Source: Planctomycetota bacterium | GTDB lineage: Bacteria; Planctomycetota; PLA2 | Direction: 5' to 3' | NCBI GenBank assembly: GCA_021776785.1 | Contig: JAJFFF010000043.1 | Span: forward strand, 68,196 to 132,195 | Length of the DNA: 64,000 nt | Shown: in pieces, positions 7,143 to 10,877 of the stretch | How the letters are laid out: each line of letters begins with the position of its first letter | Position numbering within the stretch: the first letter of the stretch is position 1 | Notes under the pieces: generated by a model | What the model was told of the DNA's origin: nothing | Database searches by the model: none | Seen by the model: only the letters and a program-made list of their open reading frames with translations | Translations under genes and position numbers: made by a program

Positions 7143-8864
7143 ATGCCCAAGCAGATTCTCGCGTTCGCAACGTTTGCGTGCGTGGCCCTCGCGTTTACCA
7201 CGGCGAACGTTTACGCCGACACGGTGCCGGCGAATGCACGCGCCATCTTCGACAAGGCGGAAGTCTTGCGCGAAGAGGGCAACCTGGAGAAGGCCGCGGA
7301 AGCCTACGTTCAGGCCATTGAGGCGCATCCGTCTTATGACGGCGCGCATGCGGGGTACCTCGCCTGTTTGCGTGGCATCGGTGACCTGTTTCCCGCGCGA
7401 AAGCTGTACGCAAAACTCGCGTCCAAGCACCCCAACGTGATGGAGGTGCAGGTGTTCGCGGCGGCGTGCCAAGAACCCAAGGATGCGCTTCCGGCACTCG
7501 GCAAGATCTGCGACGACTTCCCCGGCCTCTATCGCGCGTGGGTGGAATGGGGCCGGCTGCAACTCTCGATGGGCGAAACGAAAGCGGCGGAAGCGTCGTT
7601 TAAGGCCGCCATCAAGGTGAGCAGCGATAACCCGCTCGCGCACACGTTGCTCGGCGATGTGTCGTTTAGCAAGAAGAAGTATTCGGGCGCATACAAGGCT
7701 TACAACGCCGCGCGCGAGCTTGATAAGTCCTATATCCCGGCGCAGCTGCGCTGGGCGCATTGCCGCCACCGGATGAATAAGACCGAGGAGGGGCTCAAGG
7801 TTCTCAACCGCTTAGTGGCGGAAGATAACTTGCCGCGCCTCGTGGCCGGTTGGTGGATGATTGCGGTGATTCAGTTGGAGTCCGGTAAGACGGACGAGGC
7901 GATGAAGGCCATCGACACCGTCTTGACGATCGACAAGGGTGATCTCGCGGCGTCCCTGATTAAGGGCACGCTCCTCCTCAAGATGGAGAAGCCCACCGAG
8001 GCGACAAAAGTGTTTGCCGAGGCCGTGAAGGCCAACGAGAACTCGGCGGAAGCGCTGTTTTGTTTGGGTTGGGCGTACGAGAAATCCTCGGACGCGCCGG
8101 AGATCCAAGAAGCCGCGCGCAAAGAGCGCCTGCAAAAGGCCGCCGAGGCTTACGAAAAATGCACGTCGGTGGATCCGGGTGTCCGTCCGCGCGACTCGTT
8201 GGGTTTTGTCTATCTGCTCGGTGATCTCTTTGAAGATGCCGTGCGCCAGTTTGAGCGTGCGACCGACTTGGACAAGAAGTTCGCGCCTGCGGCGAACAAC
8301 CTTGGTCTTGCCGATGATCTCGCCGACAACCGCGCCGCCGCCAAACAGCGTTACGAGATCGTTCTAAAAAAGATCGACCGTTACAACGTTCGCGCGCTCG
8401 TGATGTTGGCGTTGGACCTCTGGCTCGACGGCAACGCGACCAAAGCGCTAAAAAGCCTTGAGAAGGCCGTCAAGATCGATCCCAAAGACGATCTGGCTTT
8501 CACGTTCATCGGCGATATTCACTACGACAACAAGAAGGTCAACAGCGCGATTAAGGCCTATCAAAAGGCCGTCGCACTCAACGATGCGAACTTCTTTGCT
8601 TGGTACCACATGGGGATCGCGTACGACGAAGACAAGCGCAAGTACGAAGAGGCCGAGAAGTGCTACGAGAAAGCGTTTAACGCCGAACCGAGCCCGCCTC
8701 TCGATCTCTTGTTGCGCCTGGGCAGCATCAACGACATCGATGTCTTAGACCGCCCCGAAAAGGCGCTGCAGTACTACCAGGCCTACATCGACGCCGGCGG
8801 CACCGAGGAGTGGATCCCGGAACGTATTGAGGATCTAAAGGAGCTAGCGAAAGGCGGAGGCTAG
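7143..8864 (+). CDS. Secreted tetratricopeptide repeat (TPR) protein
   Basis: 573 aa from the ATG at 7143, which has GGGAGCGGAG just upstream; the ORF-track start at 7062 lies inside the previous gene. An N-terminal signal peptide (ILAFATFACVALAFTTANVYA) precedes at least ten TPR motifs covering nearly the whole protein, for example EEGNLEKAAEAYVQAIEAHP, KYSGAYKAYNAARELD and EEAEKCYEKAFNAEPSPP. TPR superhelices act as protein-binding scaffolds, here probably in the periplasm. It lies 11 bp after the Gly/Arg-rich secreted protein, so the two may be made together. A palindromic repeat array begins about 15 bp after its stop. The partner protein is unknown. Confidence 0.9.
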   Translation: MPKQILAFATFACVALAFTTANVYADTVPANARAIFDKAEVLREEGNLEKAAEAYVQAIEAHPSYDGAHAGYLACLRGIGDLFPARKLYAKLASKHPNVMEVQVFAAACQEPKDALPALGKICDDFPGLYRAWVEWGRLQLSMGETKAAEASFKAAIKVSSDNPLAHTLLGDVSFSKKKYSGAYKAYNAARELDKSYIPAQLRWAHCRHRMNKTEEGLKVLNRLVAEDNLPRLVAGWWMIAVIQLESGKTDEAMKAIDTVLTIDKGDLAASLIKGTLLLKMEKPTEATKVFAEAVKANENSAEALFCLGWAYEKSSDAPEIQEAARKERLQKAAEAYEKCTSVDPGVRPRDSLGFVYLLGDLFEDAVRQFERATDLDKKFAPAANNLGLADDLADNRAAAKQRYEIVLKKIDRYNVRALVMLALDLWLDGNATKALKSLEKAVKIDPKDDLAFTFIGDIHYDNKKVNSAIKAYQKAVALNDANFFAWYHMGIAYDEDKRKYEEAEKCYEKAFNAEPSPPLDLLLRLGSINDIDVLDRPEKALQYYQAYIDAGGTEEWIPERIEDLKELAKGGG

Positions 8865-8879
8865 AGCCTCGTGTTTACC

Positions 8880-9042
8880 TGCTCAACATCTGACGATGTT
8901 GAGGCCCTTACGCTCGAGCGGTTTGGCACCAATTCGGATGCTTTTTGTCGCCTCTGGCGGCGTTGGGCCTGTGTCTACGGCCCGTGTCTTTCTGCTCAAC
9001 ATCTGACGATGTTGAGGCTTGGTTTGGTATCGACTCGGATGC
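8880..9042 (+). repeat. Left palindromic repeat array (about 1.5 units, 113 bp period)
   Basis: Two copies of a perfect 9-bp hairpin CTCAACATC-TGAC-GATGTTGAG lie at 8882-8903 and 8995-9016, 113 bp apart. Between them a unit carries two further small palindromes (CGCCTCTGGCG and GGGCCTGTGTCTACGGCCC) and the conserved string TTTGGCACCAATTCGGATGC. The second unit is truncated after ACTCGGATGC. The same unit recurs in reverse orientation on the far side of terC (10001-10450). The array lies between the convergent TPR and terC genes. Confidence 0.9.
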
Positions 9043-9107
9043 GCTTTTTTGACTCGCGCGCTGCTTTTGTCGAGCTTGGCGTCGGGTCGGTTTCTGTTGG
9101 CCGGGTT

Positions 9108-9815
9108 TTAGGGCTGCGGCGTGTCTTTGTTTTGGTTGTGGCTAAAACGCATTTGGAGCAGCTCGACGCCAAGTGCGAATCCCATCGGTAGGTAGATGTA
9201 TGCCTTGGGAATGTGCTGCCCGAGTCCCTCGACGACGAGTGTGACGCCGATCGTGACGAGGAACGATAAGGCCAAGATCTTCAGCGACACTTGGCGTTGG
9301 ACGAAGTCCGCAATGGGTCCCGCGAACGCGAGTACGACGCCGAACGAAACCAACACCGCTGTGTAAATGACGAAGAGGTTGTCGGTCAGTCCGACCGCGG
9401 TGATCACGGAATCGACGGAGAACACGATGTCGAGCAGGATGATTTGGGAAACGATCGATGACGCGACCGCGTACGTTTCGTTGCCGCCCAAACGCCCGGC
9501 GGGTCGGCTCTCCACGACATGATGAATCTCTTTTACCGCCTTGTAGAGAAGAAAGCCTCCGCCCAGCAGCAAGATCAGCTGTTTCCAGCTCAGCCCCCAC
9601 AAGACCGGTTCGCTCAACTGGACGACATACGATGCGCCAAGCAGGAGAAGACAACGCGCCAGGAACGCAATCCCAAGGCCGAGCAAACGAGCTCGCCGGC
9701 GTTCCTCAGGCGGTAGTCGATCCGTGAGGATTGAGATCAACAAGATGTTGTCGATCCCGAGAACTACCTCGAGCCCGACAAGAAGCGCAAAAGTCGCTAA
9801 GAGATTGAAGTCCAC
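9108..9815 (-). CDS. TerC family integral membrane protein (tellurium resistance/Mn-homeostasis family)
   Basis: 235 aa from the preferred GTG at 9815 (VDFNLLATFALL), which has GGGA seven bases upstream; the ORF track starts 15 codons earlier at another GTG (9860). It has about seven hydrophobic segments and the two acidic signatures of the TerC family: LEVVLGIDNILLISIL near the N-terminus and LLDIVFSVDSVITAVGL in the middle. Family members such as Alx and MeeY export manganese or support metalation of secreted proteins; the specific role here is not visible. The gene is bracketed by inverted palindromic repeat arrays. I looked for a yybP-ykoY manganese riboswitch upstream and saw none. Confidence 0.92.
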   Translation of the reverse strand: MDFNLLATFALLVGLEVVLGIDNILLISILTDRLPPEERRRARLLGLGIAFLARCLLLLGASYVVQLSEPVLWGLSWKQLILLLGGGFLLYKAVKEIHHVVESRPAGRLGGNETYAVASSIVSQIILLDIVFSVDSVITAVGLTDNLFVIYTAVLVSFGVVLAFAGPIADFVQRQVSLKILALSFLVTIGVTLVVEGLGQHIPKAYIYLPMGFALGVELLQMRFSHNQNKDTPQP

Positions 9816-9890
9816 GTCGATTCCCAGCGGCGCACAAACGCCGAACGGTGAGTAGGACACAAACCCGCCCCGCGCTCAACAGTCTGAACC

Positions 9891-9919
9891 TCGAAACTTC
9901 GGGCGTATCCAAGTTTCGA
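9891..9919 (-). promoter_or_regulatory. 9-bp inverted repeat upstream of terC
   Basis: TCGAAACTT and AAGTTTCGA form a perfect 9-bp stem around an 11-nt loop, 31 bp upstream of the ORF-track start of terC. It is distinct from the adjacent repeat units and could be an operator or a leader hairpin. No U-tract follows on the terC strand. Confidence 0.4.
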
Positions 9920-10000
9920 AAAGCGGCGAAGGTCAACAAAACGCCCAGGATCATCCAAGGTCAAGCGAAAGAAAACGCGCCAACGCCGCCCAAAAATCAA

Positions 10001-10450
10001 CAGGCCCACGCCGCCAGAGGCAACAAAGAGCATCCGAGGGCGGCGCCAAACCAAACGAACGTCAAAGCCTCAACATCGTGAGACGTTGAGCAGAAAGACA
10101 CGGGCCATAAACACAGGCCCACGCCGCCAGAGGCGTCAGCAAGCATCCGAATTGATGCCAAACCAAACGAACATCAAAGCATCAACGTCGTCAGACGTGG
10201 AGCAGAAGCCATAAACACAGGGCCCACGCCGCCAGAGGCGACAAAGAGCATCCGAATTGGTGCCAAACCAAACAAACGTCAAAGCCTCAACGTCGTCAGA
10301 CGTGGAGCAGAAAGACACTGGCCATATACACAGCGCCCACGCCGCCAGAGGCGTCAGCAAGCATCCGAATTGGTGCCAAACCAAACGAACGTCAAAGCTT
10401 CAACATCGTCAGATGTTGAGCCAATAAACACCGTCGAGCAGAAAGACACC
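10001..10450 (-). repeat. Right palindromic repeat array (about four units, 105-113 bp period), inverted relative to the left array
   Basis: Four hairpin copies centre at 10069-10090, 10181-10202, 10286-10307 and 10399-10420, with periods of 112, 105 and 113 bp. Read on the minus strand each unit has the order seen in the left array: CTCAACATC hairpin, GGTTTGGCACCAATTCGGATGC, CGCCTCTGGCGG palindrome, GGGCCTGTGTTTATGGCCC palindrome. One stem pair changes from A-T to G-C in two copies and to G-T in a third, which preserves pairing. The array fills most of the 600-bp gap between terC and the gene at 10464; the rest of that gap (9861-10000) holds only the hairpin at 9891. Confidence 0.9.
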
Positions 10451-10463
10451 GACAAGCACGCCC

Positions 10464-10877
10464 CTAGGGCATGATGACTTTGGCAACGCGCTCGCCCGTT
10501 TCCGAGACAAGCAGCACTTCCACGTCGCGTGCGCCGACCGGAAGTATGCCCTCGATTTCGAGTTCGGTGCTTACCCCGTCCGCGTCAGTGAACTCGCCGT
10601 GCGTAGCTTTCTCGCACGCGCTGAGTTGGCGGATCGTCTGGCGTTTGCCGTTTAGGTGATACGCCAACGTTGCGTGACTCACCGCGCCCGCGCAGCGAAG
10701 ACGCACGCGCACTCGTTGACCGGTTTCGAGTTTGGTAACCGACACTTCCGGCTCGCCCTGGACCACCGCGAGTGTGGGTTGGTCGGGCGGAGTCGCTTGC
10801 GGTTCGACTTGCCGCGAGCGCAGCGCGAAGGCGAGCAATGCGCCCGCGATCACAAGGGTAATGACGTATCGATACAT
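10464..10877 (-). CDS. Small membrane-anchored hypothetical protein
   Basis: 137 aa. An N-terminal signal or anchor (YVITLVIAGALLAFAL) is followed by a ~110-residue extracytoplasmic domain of alternating strands (VSVTKLETGQRVRVRLRCAG, THGEFTDADG, EIEGILPVGARDVEVLLVSE), suggesting an Ig-like beta-sandwich. No catalytic or metal-binding motif is seen and I do not recognise a family. It is an isolated minus-strand gene, and the right repeat array begins a few bases past its stop, so transcription of the gene could run into the array and then terC. Confidence refers to it being a gene. Confidence 0.6.
   Translation of the reverse strand: MYRYVITLVIAGALLAFALRSRQVEPQATPPDQPTLAVVQGEPEVSVTKLETGQRVRVRLRCAGAVSHATLAYHLNGKRQTIRQLSACEKATHGEFTDADGVSTELEIEGILPVGARDVEVLLVSETGERVAKVIMP

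Follow-up and report, generated by a model that had tools for sequence, protein, structure and literature searches.

Tandem REP-like hairpin arrays at transcription-unit 3′ ends of a planctomycete genome, with a probable role in RNA

Whether extragenic palindromes are parasites or devices at RNA 3′ ends is an old question. In Neisseria and Haemophilus, intrinsic terminators are formed from inverted uptake sequences. The REP and BIME elements of enterobacteria and the GTAG-tagged REPs are short, dispersed intergenic palindromes that lie mostly just downstream of genes (Di Nocera et al. 2013, PMC3733652); they also occur between co-directional or convergent genes and can stabilise RNA 3′ ends, and most REP dimers are head-to-head or tail-to-tail. 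For the REPs of E. coli, RNA 3′-end stabilisation without termination of transcription has been described (PMC13289151). The CGTC-tagged REPs of alphaproteobacteria combine an 8-bp stem and a 4-nt loop with a CCA-like tail on the complementary strand, have no dedicated transposase, and begin their stems with complementary A-T pairs (PMC3733652). Here we describe a planctomycete hairpin family that makes the question testable: its polarity is fixed, its T-rich tract is separable, its stem has both invariant and covarying positions, and related genera differ cleanly in having or lacking it.

The window analysed here, a 64,000-nt stretch of Planctomycetota contig JAJFFF010000043.1, contains six copies of a palindrome-rich 105-113 bp unit around terC, at 8870-9069 on the + strand and 10003-10421 on the - strand. 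A repeat search of the window returned four direct 111-nt copies at 9991-10431 and two at 8870-9020, and the two arrays were mutually inverted, with 150-nt arms that were 85% complementary. Together with a covariance model (CM), this search confirmed the layout reported in the first-pass annotation, namely two copies on the left of terC and four on the right in the opposite orientation. The features are as follows.

7143..8864, + strand, TPR-repeat protein gene (Pfam TPR matches, gene prediction), whose 3′ end bears the left array
8857..8870, + strand, hairpin GAGGCT-AG-AGCCTC spanning the stop codon at the TPR gene end (sequence, fold)
8871..8879, + strand, T-rich leader GTGTTTACC, immediately 5′ of the first repeat hairpin (sequence, family leader consensus)
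8881-8968, + strand, left copy 1 of the unit (CM match)
8882..8903, + strand, hairpin A of left copy 1, CTCAACATC-TGAC-GATGTTGAG (sequence, repeat search, CM)
8947..8961, + strand, hairpin B of left copy 1, GTCGCC-TCT-GGCGGC with one G-T wobble (sequence, alignment model A2)
8965..8994, + strand, hairpin C (GGGCC...GGCCC) with T-rich tract GTGTCTTTCTG, in the left array only (sequence)
8994..9069, + strand, left copy 2 of the unit, its distal part degenerate (CM match of 43 bits, L061 7190-7265)
8995-9016, + strand, hairpin A of left copy 2
9108..9860, - strand, terC-family membrane protein gene between the arrays (Pfam TerC, 145 bits)
10003..10091, - strand, right array unit 4, the most distant from its gene (CM, 87.9 bits)
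10116..10203, - strand, right array unit 3 (CM, 92.1 bits)
10221..10308, - strand, right array unit 2 (CM, 99.0 bits)
10334..10421, - strand, right array unit 1, the closest to its gene (CM, 102.6 bits)
10464..10877, - strand, 137-aa ORF with no Pfam match, the gene upstream of the right array, its stop 42 nt away

As had been claimed, G-C replaced one A-T pair of the stem in two copies (at 10177 and 10282) and G-T (- strand) replaced it in a third (at 10065), but both G-C copies bear an additional unpaired change (GACGTGGAG), and the six window copies alone are therefore weak evidence of covariation. An Rfam search of the window matched a tRNA alone, and the arrays that were searched matched no Rfam family. 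Terminator-like stems that start at or contain a stop codon were seen at 8857-8870 of the window and at the array-facing gene ends of L117, L126 and L032 (for example TAAGCGCCGC-GAA-GCGGCGCTTA), so that the stop codon belongs to the hairpin.

The unit is not confined to the window. A blastn search of the 5-Mb source genome returned 94 matches at about 35 sites, far above chance, and the hairpin pattern matched 124 times, versus 0 for a reversed control. The covariance model, built from 50 copies and applied to 61 stretches of this genome at a cut-off of E < 0.001, detected at least 172 copies in these stretches, and whole-genome scoring passed 147 of the best 150 candidates. Such a search had been proposed in the first-pass annotation, and it recovered recurrent, covarying copies. 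The copies are grouped in about 78 arrays, each with between one and six units; many lie at contig ends, consistent with repeats that break assemblies. Because unit identity was higher within arrays (0.86) than between them (0.68), we infer that arrays grow locally. One four-unit array (L054 2924-3290) lies behind a region with neither a predicted gene nor an Rfam match whose end looks structured, and which may contain an unannotated small RNA gene.

Each unit consists, in order, of a T-rich leader, hairpin A, a spacer and hairpin B, a GCC hairpin. The leader consensus, GTnTTTTTTGG, was conserved in both genera that carry the family. Hairpin A reads YYCAAC-NNC-TGAC-GNN-GTTGRR, with two more stem pairs beyond one bulged base, and alone also forms a tandem unit of about 30 nt; the spacer is TTTGACGTTCGnnCGGTTTGGCA followed by CCAATTCGG or TGCCTTTGG, and hairpin B is GTCGCC-TCT-GGCGGC. 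The T-rich tract (up to 60-90% T at several positions) is located 5′ of hairpin A and 3′ of the upstream hairpin, and the sequence 3′ of hairpin A is only weakly T-rich. Since a hairpin, belonging either to the gene itself or to the preceding unit, commonly stands before the tract, tandem units repeat the combination of a hairpin and a T-tract.

In hairpin A, the TGAC loop was present in 121 of 130 copies and the pairs C-G, A-T, A-T and C-G were almost invariant, while the two loop-proximal and two basal pairs swapped among A-T, C-G and G-C together with their partners. Four stem pairs covaried across many loci (CG25/UA20, UA28/CG21 and two others), with 67 double-changed cells observed versus 22 in shuffles, and the alternative matched stems GC/GC, GG/CC, AC/GT, GT/AC and CG/CG occurred in 6, 5, 4, 3 and 1 stretches, respectively. 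The paired stem changes, together with the conserved TGAC loop, indicate that a folded strand is under constraint, and the earlier interpretation of the compensatory changes was thus borne out by the strong genome-wide set. Helix A contained six G-U (G-T) and six A-C mismatches, that is, neither an excess nor a strand preference, so that only helix B speaks for RNA rather than single-stranded DNA. There, 110 G-T versus 6 A-C combinations, which largely represent one shared ancestral wobble, favour the given strand as the functional one.

The position of the arrays was analysed against genes called with a self-trained hexamer model. None of the 78 arrays overlapped a predicted gene, and 57 of the 70 arrays with a known neighbour were located behind a same-strand gene (p = 1e-7). 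The median distance was 53 nt between stop and array, versus 232 nt between array and next gene. Six of the 13 exceptions lay behind a same-strand RNA gene (tRNA-Met, SRP RNA, tRNA-Thr twice, tRNA-Gln and tRNA-Ala), and one further array with no called gene lay behind a same-strand tRNA-Ile. With tRNA and SRP RNA genes included, 64 of 71 arrays had the same sense as the transcription unit upstream; seven are left unaccounted for by this polarity. Arrays were also present behind RNase P RNA, tRNA-Leu, tRNA-Ser, tRNA-Arg and tRNA-Gly genes. Such placement and orientation are consistent with an element that is active in the upstream unit's RNA, or that is tolerated only there. Because the great majority of gene ends lack an array, the family is not a general terminator. 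Of 51 arrays, 16 were separated from the stop by a strong unique hairpin and may therefore receive little RNA, and in eight arrays the repeat hairpin lay no more than 20 nt from the stop.

Among the planctomycetes sampled, the family was restricted to two genera. The hairpin was found in one of 391 other planctomycetes, OFTM341, which belongs to the same family, and the covariance model matched only one of 58 relatives, G002 (taken as OFTM341 on identical pattern counts), of the same family and a different genus. The hairpin pattern gave 80 matches in G002, none in the three remaining family members and no more than one in any other sampled planctomycete. Copies in G002 retained the leader and the hairpin but not the spacer; those with the ATC stem type were mostly in sense just behind a gene end, and those with the GGC type were less regular. 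The fixed loop and stem positions also held in this second genus, although the search pattern itself demanded part of them. Between the RNase P RNA gene and its convergent neighbour, two inverted copies are present here and none in G002, G003 or G004, a difference that reflects either gain here or loss elsewhere. G002 arrays also contain a second palindrome, consisting of GGMGGAACCGCTAAGCG and its complement arm, in alternation with the TGAC hairpin (L132 2633-2900, L134 3410, L135 3848).

The best description is an untagged REP-like family whose head-to-tail arrays keep an unusually strict polarity. In the broad sense it is REP-like as a short, high-copy palindrome (at least 172 copies) that is extragenic (0/78 overlapping) and downstream of transcription units (64/71), and like REP/BIME and GTAG-REPs it is dispersed between genes just behind their ends. 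In contrast to REP dimers, its arrays are head-to-tail and on one strand relative to the gene. GTAG was absent beside either stem arm in alignments A1 and A2, which places the family outside the GTAG-REPs. A RAYT-linked element was rejected because Y1_Tnp genes, which also occur in repeat-free genomes, were unflanked by the repeat; around the five Y1_Tnp loci of the genome itself, no repeat lay within the 1.8-3.3 kb examined. The CGTC-tagged REPs resemble the unit in their 8-bp stem, 4-nt loop, CCA-like complementary tail and independence of a dedicated transposase. However, the planctomycete stem begins with T-A or C-G, CGTC is several bases off rather than adjoining the stem (A1), and head-to-tail arrays are typical of the planctomycete family, unlike CGTC-REPs; membership was rejected on the position of the tag. 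Uptake-sequence terminators are likewise repeated palindromes at gene 3′ ends that can form a terminator-like hairpin, whereas here the T-rich tract is 5′ of the conserved hairpin, the tandem units measure 30-113 bp, and no uptake role is indicated. Integron attC sites were considered because GTTGAAC and GTTGGGC fit GTTRRRY, and were set aside since the hairpin loop is merely 4 nt and the arrays contain no predicted genes. A phage origin was dismissed on finding no match in phage records. Viral contigs contained 15 isolated 18-mer matches. The genome scan also returned four Paenibacillus matches, of which the one inspected, L070, appears to lie in a coding region and was put down to coincidence.

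We favour, with moderate confidence, a dispersed REP-like hairpin family at transcription-unit 3′ ends with a role in RNA, either back-up termination or 3′-end protection; its genome-wide spread, position, polarity and covariation are observed directly. Units would join arrays in head-to-tail order and, in nearly every case, in the same sense as the gene upstream. RNA reading through the gene's own terminator would then fold into a series of hairpins, each backed by the T-rich tract of the next unit, so that arrays could serve as back-up terminators. Alternatively, they may block exonucleases at RNA 3′ ends; by analogy with the E. coli REPs, stabilisation without termination would be an equal alternative. 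The family would spread without a linked transposase and probably has a neutral or slightly beneficial effect on the cell. It is conceivable, though doubtful, that a dedicated planctomycete-specific protein reads the C-TGAC-G loop and CAAC/GTTG stem in RNA, with tandem copies retained at the ends of certain mRNA, tRNA, SRP and RNase P transcripts for their termination or protection.

The main rival is a purely selfish single-stranded DNA element: a Y1/HUH-type enzyme acting in trans would recognise the bulged TGAC hairpin and insert the repeat beside terminator hairpins, thereby fixing strand and position with no benefit to the host. Its patchy occurrence (two of five family members), the RNase P site occupied here and empty in G002, G003 and G004, and the Y1_Tnp proteins encoded by both carriers all point this way, and hairpins read by Y1 enzymes resemble a fixed loop on a compensated stem. 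Yet Y1_Tnp genes are also present in the repeat-free relatives G001, G003, G006, G009 and G015, and 0/5 Y1 loci in the genome itself are flanked by the repeat; we regard this reading as possible but rather unlikely. Quasipalindrome correction is a known mutational process, and a neutral repeat might acquire paired changes through template switching between palindrome arms and gene conversion within arrays rather than through selection on the fold. The internal homogenisation of arrays (0.86 vs 0.68) would agree with this. However, TGAC (121/130) and the C-G, A-T, A-T and C-G pairs are near-fixed while adjacent pairs vary, which argues for recognition or function, and the same positions are fixed in the second genus, in part by demand of the search pattern. 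A neutral origin of the paired changes seems improbable.

The mobile cassette or regulatory RNA pair centred on terC that was originally proposed did not survive the genome-wide comparison and is now exceedingly improbable. Two inverted arrays do flank the gene, but about 76 further arrays occupy other sites in the genome, and both window arrays are in sense behind their own upstream genes. The inverted layout follows from the left array belonging to the TPR gene (+) and the right array to the ORF at 10464-10877 (-). The two arrays are independent of each other, and terC is incidental, placed between two 3′ ends by chance gene order. Among relatives, copies recurred in a single other genus, and not in a terC context: G001 and G003 have terC homologues yet zero hairpin matches, and the repeat-bearing G002/OFTM341 gave no terC match. 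At the G001 and G003 terC loci, the neighbouring genes of the window were not matched. Repeats flanking one gene need not be a cassette for that gene.

Other short repeats were observed in the relatives. In G002 (L132-L141, L172-L191), the 12-mer ATCGCCGTCCGT, with wider consensus GACATCGCCGTCCGTnCGCT, occurred 55 times in 232 kb versus about 0.03 expected; 859 kb of the window's genome contained a single copy, and the G001 and G003 samples none. The 12-mer resembles an uptake signal or some other short dispersed motif. In G001 (L239-L258), which has no hairpin repeat, a G-rich 15-mer, AGGGGGCTCCGGGGG or CAGGGGGTCCGGGGG, occurred 21 times in 260 kb, and 12 of the 21 copies were within predicted genes.
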